32,002 nucleotides of DNA from the NCBI GenBank assembly GCA_026395955.1, contig JAPLXR010000003.1, positions 1-32,002 on the forward strand, in the 5' to 3' direction. Of the stretch, positions 6,929-32,002 are shown piece after piece. This stretch comes from Candidatus Nomurabacteria bacterium (lineage in GTDB: Bacteria > Patescibacteriota > Minisyncoccia > Phycocordibacterales > UBA9973). The notes under the pieces are model-generated. The model did no database searches, was not told the origin of the DNA, and was given only the letters and a program-made list of their open reading frames with translations. Numbering within the stretch: the stretch's first letter is position 1; every line of letters starts with the position of its first letter. A program made the translations under genes and the position numbers.

Positions 6929-8089
6929 TTATAAGCTTAATCCGCCAACTGCCTTGATTTTGTCAAAACCTTTTTTTGTTGCTTTATTTCTGCGGAAGTA
7001 GCCGACGAGGGCGATCATAACAGCATTATCCATTGATAGTTTTTTACCAGGGAATAATACTTTGATTTTAGGATTTTCAGCTTTTATTTTTTGAGTTAAT
7101 ATTTTTTTAAGTCTTTTGTTTGCAGATACACCACCACCGACGATGAGTGTTTTTACTTTGTGTTCTTTTATAGCTTTGAGAGTTTTGTATGTGAGTACAT
7201 CGACGACAGCATCTTCGAATTCTCGCGCAATAGATTCTTTCATCCCTACAAACTGGAGTTTGTCAGGATGTTCTTTTTCTAAATCTCTTATCAAATATAA
7301 TACTGCAGTTTTTAAACCAGAAAAAGAAAAATCATAATTTTTTGTATACATCATTGGGCGGGGGAGATAAATTTCTGCAGAATTAGTGTTTTGAAGAGTA
7401 CGGATATTTTTCTGCTGAAAAATTCCTCGTGCTCGCGCCGTCGCGCTCCCAAGTCTCTTCAAATTACTAATTCTGCTCACTTCTGCTAATCGTGAAATTT
7501 CTGGTCCTCCAGGGTATGGTAATCCCATCATACGAGCAACTTTATCGAAAGCTTCACCTGCAGCATCATCGACAGTTTCACCTATAGTTTTGTATTTCAT
7601 CCAATCTTTTGCGAGAACTAATTCTGTATGTCCACCAGAAACTAATAGGGAAAGAATAGGGAATTCAATTTTTGGTATTTTAAAACTTCCAGAATTTTTT
7701 CCAAATACTGAGAGAGTATGACCTTCCATATGGTTTACTGGTAGAAGTGGTACGTCCCATTTTTTTGAAAGTTCTTTTGCAAAGACTATTCCAGTCCAAA
7801 GTGCTGGTTCGAGTCCTGGGCCATATGTCACAGCTATCATATCTACAGGTTTTTTATTTTTTTCTAATTTTGCTTTCTTTAATATTTTTTCTAAAAGTAT
7901 TGGTAGATTTTTTATATGTTCACGTTTTGCAAGAGCAGGAAAAACACCTCCATATGGTGCATGGATTTTTATTTGAGAAGATATGCCTTCAGCCAAGATT
8001 TTAAAAGTAGGATTTTTTTCTCCACCTTTTACTTCTAATATAGCTATACCTGTATCATCACAGCTTGTTTCAATGGATAAAATTTTCAT
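6929..8089 (-). CDS. tsaD: tRNA t6A-modification ATPase TsaD, with an internal repeat-derived insertion
   Basis: A 386-residue member of the ASKHA/Kae1 family that transfers threonylcarbamoyl to A37 of ANN-decoding tRNAs together with TsaB and TsaE. Motifs are MKILSIETSCDDT at the N-terminus, metal-binding NHMEGH (His 120 and 124), SLLVSGGHTEL near 148-157, and YDFSFSGLKTA near 252-262. The start at 8089 is chosen because the family begins MKILSIETSCDD; the longer frame upstream would read into the element next to tRNA-Val. The family is usually about 340 residues. The excess is explained by about 36 residues near 204-239 (EVSRISNLKR...NTNSA) encoded by a palindromic element, between the LAxx helix and the LPRPM strand. 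The gene lies downstream of tRNA-Val and upstream of valS. Confidence 0.95.
   Translation of the reverse strand: MKILSIETSCDDTGIAILEVKGGEKNPTFKILAEGISSQIKIHAPYGGVFPALAKREHIKNLPILLEKILKKAKLEKNKKPVDMIAVTYGPGLEPALWTGIVFAKELSKKWDVPLLPVNHMEGHTLSVFGKNSGSFKIPKIEFPILSLLVSGGHTELVLAKDWMKYKTIGETVDDAAGEAFDKVARMMGLPYPGGPEISRLAEVSRISNLKRLGSATARARGIFQQKNIRTLQNTNSAEIYLPRPMMYTKNYDFSFSGLKTAVLYLIRDLEKEHPDKLQFVGMKESIAREFEDAVVDVLTYKTLKAIKEHKVKTLIVGGGVSANKRLKKILTQKIKAENPKIKVLFPGKKLSMDNAVMIALVGYFRRNKATKKGFDKIKAVGGLSL
7377..7476. repeat. Inverted-arm element, in frame inside tsaD
   Basis: Arms at 7377-7398 and 7455-7476 are reverse complements at 20 of 22 positions. They enclose a 56-nt core containing the hairpin TTTTCTGCTGAAAA and the GC-rich stretch GTGCTCGCGCCGTCGCG. 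The same core, with different arms, lies at 30787-30891. The reading frame stays open through it, adding about 36 residues to TsaD. The hexamer GCAGAA (minus strand) occurs on both sides 108 nt apart, a possible target duplication. Confidence 0.8.
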
Positions 8090-8100
8090 AAATAATACTG

Positions 8101-8238
8101 TGGTCAGGAATAATTTTGTTTTCGTCAAAACAAAATTTTCACGACCCTGGCTCACTTATTTTTTCTGTTGAAAAAATATAGTTCCGCCTCGCACAAGGCG
8201 CGAAAAGCAGAGCAGTCTGCTTTTCTTCCCTTTGTGCG
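8101..8238 (-). repeat. tRNA-abutting structured element A (behind tRNA-Val)
   Basis: In minus-strand order it starts at the end of tRNA-Val. Stem 1 has arms at 8229-8238 and 8190-8198 (CGCACAAAGG with CCTTGTGCG) and includes the last four tRNA nucleotides. Inside is a second 10-bp hairpin (GAAAAGCAGA / TCTGCTTTTC) around ACTGCTCT. An AT hairpin follows (TTTTTTCAACAGAAAAAA), then AATTTTGTTTT-GACG-AAAACAAAATT. The order and several sequence blocks match the element behind tRNA-Glu (10975-11127). It fills the gap between tRNA-Val and tsaD and may be transcribed with both. Confidence 0.7.
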
Positions 8239-20384: not shown

Positions 20385-21398
20385 ATGGGAATATTTTCAA
20401 AAAAATTAGGTATAGACCTTGGAACTGCAAATACATTGGTGTTTGTACCTGGAAAGGGCATAGTTTTAAACGAGCCTTCTGTTGTTGCTGTTTCTGAACA
20501 AGACAATAAAATACTCGCTATTGGTTTTGAAGCAAAAGACATGATCGGTAAAACACCAGATTCTATTATTGCTTATCGTCCGATGAAAGACGGAGTTATA
20601 GCAGATTATAGAGTGACAGAAGCCATGCTTCGTTATTTTATAAATAAAGCGATGGGAAAATTTAATTTATTTAAACCAGATGTGATGGTCTCAGTTCCTG
20701 CTGGTGTGACTAGTACAGAACGTCGTGCAGTTATCGAAGCTGCTATTCGTGCTGGTGCAAAAAATGCTTATGTAGTGAAAGAACCAATTCTCGCAGCTAT
20801 CGGTGCTGGAATTCCTATTTATGAATCAAAGGGTCATATGATTGTCGACATTGGTGGAGGTACGACAGACGTCGCAGTTATTTCTCTGGGAGGAATCGTG
20901 GCTTCTACTTCTGTAAAATGTGCAGGAAATAAAATAGACCAAGCTATCGCAGACTATATAAAGAAAACATTTAATCTAGCTATCGGAGACAGAACTGCTG
21001 AAGAAGTAAAAATAAAAATTGGTGCAGCGATACAACTCGAAGAAGAGCTACGTGTAACCATAAAAGGACGTGATTTTATCCAAGGTCTTCCACGCTCTGC
21101 TCAAGTCGGTACAAATGAAATAGTAAAAGCTATCGATGGAGAATTGAAACAAATGATTAAAGCTATTAAAGATGTCTTGCAAGAAACTCCTCCAGAACTC
21201 GCTTCAGATATTATTGATCACGGTATTATAATGACAGGTGGTTCATCAATGCTTCGCAATTTACCTGATTTGGTTTATAGAAAGACAGGAGTAAAAGCAA
21301 GTCTAGCTGAAGATGCTCTATATTGTGTAGCAAAAGGTACTGGTATTGCACTTGATCACCTAGATGTATACAAGAAAACAGTTTTAAGTAAGAAGTAA
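20385..21398 (+). CDS. mreB: Rod shape-determining protein MreB
   Basis: A 337-residue bacterial actin. KKLGIDLGTANTLVFVPGKG near residues 6-25 is the phosphate-1 loop. RPMKDGVIADY, SVPAGVTSTERRAV, and MIVDIGGGTTDVAVISLGG near 150-168 (phosphate-2) follow, with GIIMTGGSSMLRNL near 284-297 as the adenosine motif. MreB filaments guide lateral wall synthesis at the inner membrane. The start is set by the family N-terminus and by the -10 box six nt upstream. It is followed by a very strong hairpin and then the delta'-like gene, and no mreC, mreD or rodA follows, unlike the classic mre operon. Confidence 0.97.
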   Translation: MGIFSKKLGIDLGTANTLVFVPGKGIVLNEPSVVAVSEQDNKILAIGFEAKDMIGKTPDSIIAYRPMKDGVIADYRVTEAMLRYFINKAMGKFNLFKPDVMVSVPAGVTSTERRAVIEAAIRAGAKNAYVVKEPILAAIGAGIPIYESKGHMIVDIGGGTTDVAVISLGGIVASTSVKCAGNKIDQAIADYIKKTFNLAIGDRTAEEVKIKIGAAIQLEEELRVTIKGRDFIQGLPRSAQVGTNEIVKAIDGELKQMIKAIKDVLQETPPELASDIIDHGIIMTGGSSMLRNLPDLVYRKTGVKASLAEDALYCVAKGTGIALDHLDVYKKTVLSKK

Positions 21399-21400
21399 AA

Positions 21401-21443
21401 AGCTAGGCAAGACCTAGCAATACTTGCTAGGTCTTGCCTAGCT
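21401..21443. other. 20-bp perfect hairpin between mreB and the delta' gene
   Basis: Arm AGCTAGGCAAGACCTAGCAA (21401-21420), loop TAC, perfect complement at 21424-21443. No T-run follows, so it is not a standard terminator. Each arm also contains an internal CTAGG/CCTAG pairing. It ends 7 nt before the delta' start codon and could limit ribosome access, protect mreB mRNA or mark an insertion. Confidence 0.8.
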
Positions 21444-21450
21444 CAGAGCT

Positions 21451-22182
21451 ATGTTAAAAAAGTATTTAAATAAAGAAAATTTACATCATGCGTATTTAAT
21501 AGAAGGGAATAAAGATGAAATCTTACCCAGCCTCTTTTCTATTTTAGAAGAGTTAAAAGTAAAGACTAGTGCTAATCCTGATTTTTACAATATTTCTCTC
21601 GATACTTTTAAAATGGATGACGCTGAAAATTTAAAGTCTTCAGCCAATCAAAAGAGTTTCGGAGATAAAAAAGACACAAAGAGAATTTTTATAATTTCTG
21701 CAAATAATTTTTTACATAATGCGCAGAATACATTACTCAAAATTTTCGAAGAACCAAAGATTGATACACATTTCTTTTTAATAACTCCTGATAAAGAAGT
21801 TTTTTTACCTACTATTATTTCTAGAACTTATTTTATTTCTATAAAATCTGAAACAGGAGATGAAACAAAAGAGGCAGACAAATTCATTAAAATGAATTTG
21901 TCTGCCCGTCTCGAATATATAAAAGATTTAGTAAAAGGGAAGGATGATGAAGAAACCACCACCCCGCCTGAAGGCACCCCTCCTCAAAAAGGAGGGGAGG
22001 AATCGGAATCACCTCGTGCGAAAGCTTTGAAATTCCTTTCAGCTCTGGAGATAGTTGTTTCAAAAAGTGAATATAAAAACAAAGTAGAAGTTGTAGATCA
22101 AATTTTTAAAGTTCGTGAATACCTCCGCCAGCCAGGATCAAGCACTAAAATGCTTATGGAATCTGTGGCGATTTTGCTTTAA
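21451..22182 (+). CDS. holB: DNA polymerase III delta'-like clamp-loader subunit
   Basis: A 243-residue AAA+-like protein. LHHAYLIEGN near residues 11-20 replaces the P-loop region; no GxxGxGK is present, as is normal for non-hydrolysing delta'. RIFIISANNFLHNAQNTLLKIFEEPK near 78-103 carries the clamp-loader NALLKxLEEP signature, and TIISRTYFI near 121-129 follows, with SRT near the SRC-like sensor position. The usual zinc cysteines are missing. A repeat-encoded linker (residues about 168-186, TPPEGTPPQKGGEE) separates the AAA+ part from the shortened C-terminal collar. It is downstream of mreB across a 20-bp hairpin. Symbol given on motif grounds; exact subunit identity is likely but not certain. 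Confidence 0.83.
   Translation: MLKKYLNKENLHHAYLIEGNKDEILPSLFSILEELKVKTSANPDFYNISLDTFKMDDAENLKSSANQKSFGDKKDTKRIFIISANNFLHNAQNTLLKIFEEPKIDTHFFLITPDKEVFLPTIISRTYFISIKSETGDETKEADKFIKMNLSARLEYIKDLVKGKDDEETTTPPEGTPPQKGGEESESPRAKALKFLSALEIVVSKSEYKNKVEVVDQIFKVREYLRQPGSSTKMLMESVAILL
21956..22002 (+). repeat. GC-rich palindromic element, in frame inside holB
   Basis: It reads CCACCCCGCCTGAAGGCACC, then the hairpin CCCCTCCT-CAAAA-AGGAGGGG. The half-element in mnmA at 31329-31373 has the same order, and both encode GTPP-xx-GGEE in the same frame. It lies in an interdomain linker and is strongly GC-rich in an AT-rich gene. Confidence 0.85.
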
Positions 22183-29352: not shown

Positions 29353-30261
29353 ATGGAACCTTTAATATTAGAAGAAAAACAAAAAATACAGTATTTTTAT
29401 TATTACGTTTTTGGAATTGTGTCTTTAATAGTAATAAGTATTTATTTTTTGTTTAGTGCACCAAATAATTTTCCTGTTGGACAAGTAGTTACAATACCTG
29501 CTGGTGCCTCACTTCGTTCTATATCTTTTGAATTAAAGAATATGAATATTATTCGTTCACGAACAGTATTTGAATCTTTGGCAATACTTGATGGGGGTGA
29601 GAAAAGTATAAATGTTGGGGATTATGTTTTTAATCAAAAAACAAATGTATTTGAAGTGGCTCGTCGAATAGTAAATGCTGACAGGGGAATAGATGAAGTT
29701 AAAATAACTATTCCAGAAGGTTTTACTACAGCAGATATTATAAATATAATATCACCAAAATTAAATAATTTTAAGAAAGATGTTTTTATTTCTTTGATTA
29801 AAGATAAAGAAGGATACCTCTTTCCTGATACATATTTTTTCTTTCCAAGCGCCACAGCTGAAGATATTTATAAAATGATGAATGACAATTTTTCTAAGAA
29901 GATAAAACCAATACTTTCAGATATAAATGCTTCTGGAAAAACTTTGAATCAAATTATAACTATGGCATCTATTATAGAAGGTGAAGCAAAAGGAGATAAT
30001 GATCGTAGTGTTATTGCTGGAATTTTATGGAATAGAATAAACAAAGGAATACCTCTACAAGTAGATGCAGATATGTGGACTTATAAAAATAAAGGCTTAC
30101 CCGCAAACCCTATTTCAAATCCTGGAATAGAAACTATTAAATCTGCGATTCATCCAACTCCATCTGTATATCTTTTTTACCTTCATGATAAACAAGGTAA
30201 TATTCACTATGCAAAAACTTTTACTGAACATAAGGCTAATATAGCGAAATATTTAAAATAA
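29353..30261 (+). CDS. mltG: Endolytic murein transglycosylase MltG
   Basis: A 302-residue membrane-anchored enzyme that cleaves nascent glycan strands and helps set their length. A membrane helix is near residues 17-35. A LysM-like part follows (VTIPAGASLRSIS), then the YceG catalytic domain with EGYLFPDTYFF near 153-163 and MASIIEGEA near 204-212, where Glu209 is the expected catalytic acid. LQVDADMWTYKN near 235-246 and PSVYLFYLHDKQGNIHYAKTFTEH near the end are also diagnostic. The stop codon overlaps the start of the next gene by one base (TAATG), giving translational coupling. Confidence 0.95.
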   Translation: MEPLILEEKQKIQYFYYYVFGIVSLIVISIYFLFSAPNNFPVGQVVTIPAGASLRSISFELKNMNIIRSRTVFESLAILDGGEKSINVGDYVFNQKTNVFEVARRIVNADRGIDEVKITIPEGFTTADIINIISPKLNNFKKDVFISLIKDKEGYLFPDTYFFFPSATAEDIYKMMNDNFSKKIKPILSDINASGKTLNQIITMASIIEGEAKGDNDRSVIAGILWNRINKGIPLQVDADMWTYKNKGLPANPISNPGIETIKSAIHPTPSVYLFYLHDKQGNIHYAKTFTEHKANIAKYLK

Positions 30262-30788
30262 TGAGAAAACACGATTTAGCTTTTATCGATATAGAAACTA
30301 CAGGACTCGATGTTACACGTCATGAGATTATTCAGATTGGTTGTGTAATTGTCGCTCCAAATATGGAGGTAGTAGAAGAATTTGAATTGAAAATAAAACC
30401 AGAGCACATAGAAAATGCTGATAAGATAGCACTAAAAGTAAATAAATATAATGAAGAAGATTGGGCTTTCGCTTATACACTACCCGAAGCCTTAAAAATA
30501 CTTTCAGAGAAAGTAAAAGGTTGTATTATGGTAGGGCAAAATGTTTCTTTTGATTCTGCTTTTTTAGGATATAATTTTTTGAAAACAAAAGTAGAAAATA
30601 CTTTTCATTATCATAAGCTCGATACTATATCTATGGCTTGGGAGAAATTTCATGGTGATGAAACTTTTGAACACTTTTCTCTTCGTGAAATGTGTAAATA
30701 TTTTGGAATAATAAATGAGAATGTTCATACTGGACTATCAGATGCCCGTGCAACCTTTGAGCTTTACAAAAAACTTTTAAACAAGTAA
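30261..30788 (+). CDS. DEDDh 3'-5' exonuclease (DnaQ/epsilon family)
   Basis: A 175-residue protein. Exo I FIDIETTGLD at residues 8-17 supplies the first Asp and Glu. Exo II is near GQNVSFDSAFLG (about 92-103), and Exo III HTGLSDARATFELY (about 155-168) gives the His and final Asp of DEDDh. It could be the proofreading epsilon subunit or a stand-alone RNase T/Orn-like exonuclease; no polymerase-binding C-terminal tail is apparent. It overlaps mltG by one base. Its stop codon lies at the edge of the inverted-arm element that separates it from mnmA. Confidence 0.85.
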   Translation: MRKHDLAFIDIETTGLDVTRHEIIQIGCVIVAPNMEVVEEFELKIKPEHIENADKIALKVNKYNEEDWAFAYTLPEALKILSEKVKGCIMVGQNVSFDSAFLGYNFLKTKVENTFHYHKLDTISMAWEKFHGDETFEHFSLREMCKYFGIINENVHTGLSDARATFELYKKLLNK

Positions 30789-30891
30789 AGTGAAAGTATC
30801 TTTTAAAAAGCACAAATAATTTTCTGCTGAAAATTTTATCTGCTCGGCCCAGTCGGCCTGCGCAAGGCTTTTTAAAAGACACTTTCACTTT
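30787..30891. repeat. Inverted-arm element filling the exonuclease-mnmA gap
   Basis: Arms at 30787-30811 and 30867-30891 are reverse complements at 24 of 25 positions. The 55-nt core contains TTTTCTGCTGAAAA, CTGCTCGGCCCAGTCGGCC and GCGCAAG and aligns with the core in tsaD (7399-7454), although the arms share nothing with those in tsaD. The element begins within the exonuclease stop codon and ends one base before the mnmA ATG. No -10 box for mnmA is visible inside. Confidence 0.85.
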
Positions 30892-30892
30892 C

Positions 30893-32002
30893 ATGAAAAA
30901 AAATAAACAAACAGTATTTGTCGGTATGTCTGGAGGGGTAGATAGCTCTGTCACAGCAGCATTACTACAAGAGCAGGGGTATGATGTAGTAGGGGTCTTT
31001 ATAAAGACTTGGCACCCGGATTTTTTGGTGTGCACAGAGGAGGACGAGCGCCGCGACGCTATGCGCGTCGCGGCGCATCTCGATATCCCATTCCTAACTT
31101 TTGATTTTGAAAAAGAATACAAAGAAGGCGTGGCTGACTATATGATTTCTGAATACAAAAAAGGACGAACTCCAAATCCAGATGTGATGTGTAATCGTGA
31201 AGTTAAATTCGGAGCCTTTCTAAAAAAAGCACTTTCTATGGGTGCTGACTTTGTGGCGACAGGACACTATGCGCAATGTACCCCTTCCTTGGTTAAGGAG
31301 GGGGTTGGGGGTGGTAATTCAAAAAATCACCACCTCGCCCTAAAGGGCACTCCTCCTCGACAAGGAGGAGAAGAAATGCAACTCTTGAAAGGAAATGATC
31401 CAGCGAAAGATCAAAGTTATTTTCTTTGGACTTTAACTCCTGAACAAATTAAACATGTTATGTTTCCTGTAGGTCATTTACCGAAACCAGAGGTTCGAAA
31501 ATTAGCAAAGAAATTCAAGCTTCCAGTAGCAGAGAAAAAAGATAGTCAGGGTATTTGTTTCCTCGGTGCAGTAGATATAAAAGTATTTTTGAAACATTAT
31601 ATAAAGTCAGAACAGGGTAAAGTTTTAAATGAAAAAGGAGAGGAAATTGGTTATCATGATGGGGCTGTTTTTTATACCCTCGGTGAAAGGCATGGTTTTA
31701 CAATTACAAAAAAGGGTAATAATGACAGCGCATATTATGTCATTGAAAAGGATATAAAAAATAATATTCTTGTAGTATCTCAGCACCCCCTCCGGCTTTC
31801 AGCCACCTCCCCCTTAGCTAAGGGGGAGGGTTGGGGTGGGGGTGTAAAATTAATTTCAATAAATTGGATTTCACAAATACCAGAAGAAGGTAAAATTTAC
31901 CAAGCTCAAGTCCGCTATCATGGGGAGTTTTTGAATTGTAAATTATCTAATATTAAAAACAGTATAGCTATAGTTTCTTTTGAAAAAGAAATCCTAGTCG
32001 CC
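30893..32002 (+). CDS. mnmA: tRNA-specific 2-thiouridylase MnmA, with two repeat-derived insertions; runs off the window
   Basis: 370 residues are visible with no stop. MnmA adds sulfur to U34 of tRNA-Glu, -Gln and -Lys. The PP-loop is SGGVDSS at residues 13-19. The catalytic cysteines are Cys100 (NPDVMCN) and Cys222 (DSQGICF), and KDQSYFLW near 172-179 is conserved. Two segments are foreign to the family. Residues about 129-161 (from TPSLVKEGVGGG to GTPPRQGGEE) replace a short hairpin between GHYA and LLKGND. Residues about 297-318 (HPLRLSATSPLAKGEGWGGG) lie in the C-terminal beta-barrel region. Both are encoded by GC-rich palindromes and keep frame. All catalytic residues are intact, so activity is probably kept. 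Confidence 0.95.
   Translation, partial: MKKNKQTVFVGMSGGVDSSVTAALLQEQGYDVVGVFIKTWHPDFLVCTEEDERRDAMRVAAHLDIPFLTFDFEKEYKEGVADYMISEYKKGRTPNPDVMCNREVKFGAFLKKALSMGADFVATGHYAQCTPSLVKEGVGGGNSKNHHLALKGTPPRQGGEEMQLLKGNDPAKDQSYFLWTLTPEQIKHVMFPVGHLPKPEVRKLAKKFKLPVAEKKDSQGICFLGAVDIKVFLKHYIKSEQGKVLNEKGEEIGYHDGAVFYTLGERHGFTITKKGNNDSAYYVIEKDIKNNILVVSQHPLRLSATSPLAKGEGWGGGVKLISINWISQIPEEGKIYQAQVRYHGEFLNCKLSNIKNSIAIVSFEKEILVA
31048..31076 (+). other. GC-rich perfect 12-bp palindrome in the mnmA coding sequence
   Basis: GCGCCGCGACGC (31048-31059), loop TATGC, complement GCGTCGCGGCGC (31065-31076). It encodes part of the conserved EED-RRDAMRVAAHL block, so no residues are inserted. The codons are CGC/GCG-rich, unlike the rest of the gene. 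It may reflect a local conversion by GC-rich sequence or chance in conserved Arg/Ala codons. Confidence 0.6.
31281..31373 (+). repeat. GC-rich palindromic element, double (inverted) copy, in frame inside mnmA
   Basis: The left half is CCCCTTCCTT-GGTT-AAGGAGGGGG followed by TTGGGGGTGGT. The right half is ATCACCACCTCGCCC, the mini-hairpin GCCC-TAAA-GGGC, and CTCCTCCT-CGACA-AGGAGGAG. The two halves are inverted relatives of each other, joined by an AT-rich centre. The right half matches the holB copy and encodes the same GTPP-xx-GGEE peptide. Confidence 0.85.
31784..31844 (+). repeat. GC-rich palindromic element, second copy in mnmA
   Basis: Outer arms CACCCCC and GGGGGTG enclose GGCTTTCAGCC and a perfect 24-bp palindrome at 31806-31829 (half-site CCTCCCCCTTAG). 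It shares GGCTTTCAGCCAC plus the CCCC-stem with the priA copy, and both encode SPL-x-x-GE. Confidence 0.87.

Follow-up and report, generated by a model that had tools for sequence, protein, structure and literature searches.

The bacterial mobile elements known so far bring their own ends with them and, as a rule, leave the target directly repeated, and we know of no insertion route for mobile DNA in which the host flank is copied as a mirror image. The closest known kind to the element described here are the Rickettsia palindromic elements (RPE; Ogata et al. 2000), families that, as summarised in PMC2229807, have their own terminal inverted repeats and for which that summary describes no target-copied arms. 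They are alike in being ~100-nt palindromes (100-150 bp) found both in gaps and in frame within conserved enzymes, in having small-genome hosts and in lacking a known transposase. REP sequences of the GTAG and CGTC super-families are 20-40 bp long and terminate on one side in an unpaired GTAG or CGTC tag, and the CGTC REPs are without a dedicated transposase (PMC3733652). REPs, including those mobilised by RAYT, are also short palindromic hairpins at high copy number (PMC3733652), but the Patescibacteria element has a ~54-nt two-hairpin core and long arms specific to each site, and is untagged at its ends; CGTC does occur in it, in the P3 loop rather than at an end, and is variable. A tagged REP/RAYT element is ruled out by the two-hairpin core, the absent end tag and the lack of a Y1 transposase in the source genome (G000), and a MITE by the unconserved termini; visual inspection of pairs of empty and occupied sites showed no clear direct repeat.

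Template switching creates, homogenises and maintains the arms of inverted repeats and inverts their spacers (PMC8794818, PMC8604942); hairpin creation and maintenance are described in PMC8794818, and arm homogenisation in coding genes and spacer inversion were both seen in yeast (PMC8604942). Such mutations share with the present element the copying of a neighbouring stretch as its reverse complement, multibase compensatory changes and spacer inversion. Unlike it, they are sporadic and arise at chance inverted repeats, whereas here a mobile core appears to seed them at nearly every insertion. The coding palindromes of Nematomorpha mitochondria (PMC6649704) are likewise perfect inverted repeats in protein genes with both arms coding, but these are animal mitochondria and the abstract mentions no conserved mobile core.

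The copy upstream of mnmA and its relatives in the source genome

The window, that is the whole 32,002-nt stretch of DNA analysed, carries one copy of the element between an exonuclease-like ORF and mnmA and another within tsaD (Table 1). The original prediction placed 25-nt arms, near-perfect reverse complements of each other, around a conserved core upstream of mnmA, and its coordinates proved exact. It also had the element filling the entire gap from the exonuclease stop to one base before the mnmA ATG; a single base does separate the right arm from the ATG, and the left arm overlaps the exonuclease stop codon (30786-30788) by two bases. Either strand of this copy folds into a long stem closing two hairpins, with a stability 7-9 sd above that of dinucleotide shuffles. 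The gap upstream of mnmA is ~9-24 nt in four relatives (G141, G124, G125 and G119) against 104 nt in the window, so that ~80-94 nt is new DNA, which would fit one unit plus one mirrored outer arm. The window MnmA contains two further in-frame inserts: that at 31277-31381 (CTPSLVKEGVGGG...TPPRQGGEE) is missing in G124, G125 and one G141 copy, and that at 31802-31849 (SPLAKGEGWGGG) is a GC-rich palindrome which recurs within the MnmA loop in several further genomes.

Table 1. Positions of the element copies and adjoining genes in the window, and of hot-spot loci in other genomes
Feature	Position	Strand	Remarks
Left arm, exonuclease-mnmA copy	30787-30811	+	25 nt; outer/inner split by analogy with other copies
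Site-specific outer arm, exonuclease-mnmA copy	30787-30798	+	Placed from the conserved bulge or mismatch in other copies
Inner arm, exonuclease-mnmA copy (TCTTTTAAAAAGC)	30799-30811	+	Placed from the conserved bulge or mismatch in other copies
Conserved core, exonuclease-mnmA copy	30812-30866	+	55 nt; hairpins P2 and P3; covariation seen in the main subfamily
P2 hairpin of this core (TTTTCTGCTGAAAA)	30820-30833, plus its extension	+	
P3 GC hairpin of this core (GGCC-CAGTC-GGCC)	~30846-30858	+	
Right arm, exonuclease-mnmA copy	30867-30891	+	24/25 complementary to left arm
Exonuclease-like ORF, upstream	30261-30788	+	Stop codon overlaps left arm
mnmA	30893-32002	+	Continues beyond window end
Left arm, tsaD copy	7377-7398	+	20/22 complementary to right arm
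Core, tsaD copy	7399-7454	+	56 nt
Right arm, tsaD copy	7455-7476	+	Pairs with left arm
tsaD	6929-8155	-	Element read in frame (...LGSATARARGIFQQKNIR...); lies in the loop flanked by YPGGPEISRLAE and LPRPM
Hot-spot loci	nusG-rplK gap, L283-L302; TsaD loop, L045-L074		Unrelated palindromic families at the same position in different species

As predicted, the core regions of the two window copies align (74% match) while their arms are unrelated. The source genome is ~0.7 Mb in 10 contigs and 94.9% complete, and ~0.4 of the 0.7 Mb was examined. A further copy (G000:C9:95880-95943) is the same as the tsaD copy over 64 nt, comprising the core and 4 nt of arm on each side, and has different outer arms; a fourth core copy lies on contig C7. 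Other core families (B and C) with site-specific arms are present in this genome at G000:C3:157485-157572 (ligA), G000:C2:53263-53350, G000:C7:41002-41093 and G000:C1:42533-42619. Elsewhere in the window, the listed tsaD ORF begins upstream of the usual MKILSIETSCD start, and the extra N-terminal stretch (8090-8155), which in other genomes matches places outside tsaD, is possibly promoter or repeat DNA. The ORF at 21451-22182 has an insert-like stretch, TPPEGTPPQKGGEE, with a hairpin, CCTCCTCAAAAAGGAGG, at 21961-22002. A near-perfect palindrome, AGCTAGGCAAGACCTAGCAATACTTGCTAGGTCTTGCCTAGCT, lies at 21401-21443, 3' of the ORF at 20385-21398, and a CTAGGCAAGACCTAG-like unit also occurs in the MnmA loop of another genome stretch (L231).

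Distribution, core and arms

The core was found in 128/147 genomes of the taxonomic family, with several copies per genome. An exact-pattern search of 84,980 species returned 69 matching stretches, and all those with a group in their title are Patescibacteria (Nomura-, Taylor-, Yonath-, Giovannoni- and Moranii- among the names), several titled just 'bacterium' or 'uncultured bacterium' being left unclassified. Scanning ~0.78 Mb of the source genome and one relative for inverted repeats whose spacers measure 40-110 nt gave 14 in the real sequence and 0 in the shuffled. The density of long inverted repeats per 100 kb, 2.7 in G000 and 1.6 in G124 against 1 in a 100-kb E. coli control, is a small difference that is not relied on here. 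A virus, phage or plasmid is ruled out as carrier by the lack of any match in the viral, phage and plasmid records of IMG/VR and the phage and plasmid collections. Rfam covariance models rule out a known structured RNA family: there is no Rfam family for the element, the window's matches at gathering score are tRNAs only, and two sub-threshold matches on the element are at chance level. Nowhere in the open-licence literature searched was such an element in Patescibacteria described, in keeping with the original statement that no named element bears this signature.

Copies in ORFs of at least 100 aa make up 49/98 and lie in TsaD, RsmE, MnmA, IscS, Dus, PheT and UvrD, the last four (IscS, Dus, PheT and UvrD) named by recognising the sequence rather than by profile search, and genes without obvious signature motifs named by eye. 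The genomes are species representatives, with ~85% DNA identity in the closest fully compared pair, and orthologous copies are non-independent events.

The ~54-nt core folds as two hairpins with meeting ends, closed by the arm stem. Pairing in the two hairpins is 97.6% across 21 distinct 54-nt cores, and 8/14 pairs have changed on both sides, a result that no shuffle reached. In ORFs of at least 250 aa the core direction is the same as that of the gene in 17 cases and opposite in 17, and IscS, RsmE, Dus and PheT each have a site where the core is found either way round; this favours an element that acts as DNA. Clustering of 139 long inverted repeats gave a family A of 85, plus several smaller families whose cores are GC-rich and whose arms, ~20-25 nt long, are unique; the TsaD loop, the MnmA loop and the nusG-rplK gap are hot spots that host several core families in different genomes.

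The original prediction called for a genome search with the core and a test of each hit for inverted flanks. Among 98 distinct copies, complementarity between a copy's own two arms had a median score of 19 (91/98 at 12 or more), whereas left and right flanks taken from different copies gave a median of 2, with 6/300 at 12 or more. RPE copies, going by the summary in PMC2229807, have terminal inverted repeats in common, and it is by this description of RPE, with Rickettsia rather than Patescibacteria as hosts, that the element is set apart from them. Copy pairs with at least 53/54 identical core positions share only ~36% left-arm identity on average. At seven genes, orthologous copies score far higher when an arm is paired with its own partner than with the arm of a sister copy, as in IscS (own 14-29 against a cross mean of 6), and in Dus several stem positions that differ between L018 and L132 are matched on both sides, with amino acids altered on both. 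Since pairing is kept while orthologous copies diverge, copying or selection must act after insertion too.

The arms are layered. In the PMDZ and CAILDB genomes and throughout one sister genus (g24), recent copies have in common a longer unit with fixed ends, for example ATAGCTCTTCCC...GATAAGACTAT, and immediately beyond it lie perfect inverted arms that vary by site, for example AAAAAGCATAA/TTATGCTTTTT and GAGCAGTTCCGA/TCGGAACTGCTC. The outer arms of 26 such layered copies scored a median of 9 with their own partner against 2 across copies, and a further layer (GGTCGTCCAT...ATTTCCTCCC) is common to some of the sister-genus copies. The arm adjacent to the core therefore travels in part with the element and the outer arm does not. 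The prediction that arms are wholly copy-specific thus stands for the outer arms and has to be relaxed for the first ~10 bp beside the core, which are partly common to recent copies; the findings it named as fatal, arm sequences common to copies or the existence of just one or two copies, did not materialise, as copies are many and the outer arms are not shared. Capture of arms from another locus of the genome is ruled out, five arms having no other full match in the examined stretches.

Empty and occupied sites

Where empty and occupied sites could be compared, the informative sites show one arm to be old host sequence, while the other, its reverse complement, is present only with the element. 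In RsmE, the stretch from FDxSGE to GPEGG is 26-28 aa when empty and 47-49 aa when occupied, a net gain of ~60 nt. The SGE codons are conserved, and their mirror stands on the far side of the core in 5/5 occupied genes and 0/6 empty ones. Between the G124 copy and its near relative G125 the flanks on both sides align codon by codon, so that the far flank was rewritten and not extended. The C-terminal loop of MnmA measures 39 aa in clean empty genes and 61 aa with family-A copies, and in the occupied genes the conserved QDKN codons are mirrored by those for NFCL or a similar sequence, a mirror that is missing from the clean empty genes. One MnmA gene with 43 aa at this place (L220) has a weak mirror without a core and is perhaps a deletion scar. 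At both coding hot spots the net gain, ~60-66 nt, is near the length of the core.

In the nusG-rplK gap of one genus, the nusG stop is followed almost at once by the next conserved stretch in three relatives. In a fourth (G047) the element follows directly after the stop, its left arm being the conserved nusG end and its right arm the reverse complement of this, a sequence not present in the empty relatives. An unrelated core in G054 shows the same mirror of the nusG end. Each of these mirrors scores 14, equalled by 2/2000 shuffles (p ~0.001). The mirror at nusG has a 10-nt extra stretch, and these shuffle tests are modest taken singly; what carries the argument is that RsmE, MnmA, nusG and the cross-copy statistics all agree. 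The hallmark of template switching, one arm being the reverse complement of a neighbouring ancestral stretch, is found at RsmE, MnmA and nusG-rplK alike.

These comparisons bear out the proposal that arms are made from local sequence, one as a reverse-complement copy of the other, and answer which arm is ancestral: the conserved host side (RsmE and MnmA codons, nusG end) is old and the mirror is new. The accompanying idea of an inverted target duplication needs revision. The mirror of the local flank is there, but a purely added inverted duplication is rejected at the coding sites, where a net gain of ~60-66 nt means that the flank was mostly overwritten; pure overwriting is in turn rejected for the intergenic gaps (mnmA, tgt). 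The 5' gap of tgt is 0-4 nt in empty relatives and both arms there are new DNA, so any model must also allow for inner layers that were inherited or for a stem that lengthened later. Short imperfect complementarity is already present in the empty RsmE genes of G125 and G000, and pre-existing quasi-palindromes may thus help to pick sites, although arm scores are 4.5-9 at empty sites against 12-25 at occupied ones.

Competing explanations and a fold-back model

The main rival is selection on the arms for pairing, the element needing a long stem in order to move, bind a protein, extrude a cruciform or act as an RNA, with compensatory substitutions keeping drifting arms paired and no local copying. 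Such selection would account for pairing kept across orthologous copies of differing sequence, for the covariation in the core itself and for the near absence of armless copies. It is nevertheless unlikely, as one arm is constrained host code (SGE of RsmE, SQDKN of MnmA, the nusG end) and it is always the free side that follows, near-identical cores have unrelated arms, several unrelated cores behave alike and, against a fixed-strand RNA role, there is no gene-strand preference (17:17). The element serves as a warning not to take covariation by itself as evidence of a functional RNA stem.

An ordinary short palindromic repeat of RPE, REP or MITE type, moving with its own arms and diverging fast afterwards, is improbable. 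Inner arms do travel with recent copies, and both arms at the tgt gap are new DNA, but recent copies in the same genome combine a common unit with unrelated perfect arms beyond it, and host codons lie within the arms. Furthermore, the arms of the C9 copy are identical in G000 and G124 while flank identity is down to 86%, which indicates that arms do not diverge unusually fast.

Insertion into pre-existing palindromes or hairpins, with both arms ancestral target sequence, would fit the net gain of near core length alone in RsmE and MnmA, the weak quasi-palindromes at some empty sites and the precedent of Yersinia YPAL, whose targets lie in or beside dyad symmetry (PMC2229807). The gulf between empty and occupied arm scores, the restriction of the SGE mirror to occupied genes and the absence from empty relatives of the nusG right arm and of most arm DNA in the mnmA and tgt gaps all stand against it; this reading is very improbable overall, and for full-length arms it is largely refuted. 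Fold-back chimeras are a known artefact and the genomes are, judged by titles, mostly metagenome assemblies, but chimeric fold-back reads from assembly or amplification, or chance, are excluded in practice by in-frame copies in housekeeping genes, recurrence at the same sites across many independent assemblies, covarying arms and shuffles that gave 0.

The best explanation, and on balance a somewhat probable one, is that Patescibacteria harbour a mobile palindromic element, dispersed and non-coding, and that its core, once folded, primes template switching by fold-back, either on insertion or afterwards. The core would land on a nascent or broken strand, where its two hairpins would place its 3' end beside its 5' end and let the strand fold back. 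The 3' end would then copy ~10-25 nt of the neighbouring host flank and then go back to its template. At coding sites it would rejoin the template further downstream, the mirror copy replacing the flank, while in intergenic gaps the copy would be added. Later fold-back switching may repair arm mismatches, which would explain the compensatory changes and the two core orientations at one site, and earlier arms carried along would become the inner layers. Copying at insertion and copying soon after are inseparable in these data.

More broadly, and only tentatively, there may be a class of mobile DNA with target-copied inverted repeats, in which a structured core inserts by fold-back synthesis, an inverted copy of the target marks each insertion, several unrelated Patescibacteria cores share the route and old arms pile up as nested layers. 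The element is best placed among the short palindromic elements, as a variant of them, and there is a fair chance that its route of insertion is new. Fold-back priming would make the ends of the element a mirror image of its target, in hundreds of copies and within essential genes of ultra-small bacteria, and would supply many natural cases of a process usually inferred from rare mutations. It would also offer a simple account of the origin and persistence of long perfect hairpins, and the element would explain odd inserted loops in Patescibacterial housekeeping proteins.

Two candidate mobilisers were ruled out, as neither tracks the element: Y1 transposases are present in 95/146 family genomes and do not follow the carriers, G000 itself having none, and reverse transcriptases, present in 78/146, are missing from several carriers. 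The source genome does encode a reverse transcriptase at G000:C2:33610-34743, 1.6 kb beyond the window end, with an insert-like stretch ahead of GLPLGNLTSQ and a small neighbouring ORF that resembles a DGR accessory protein.
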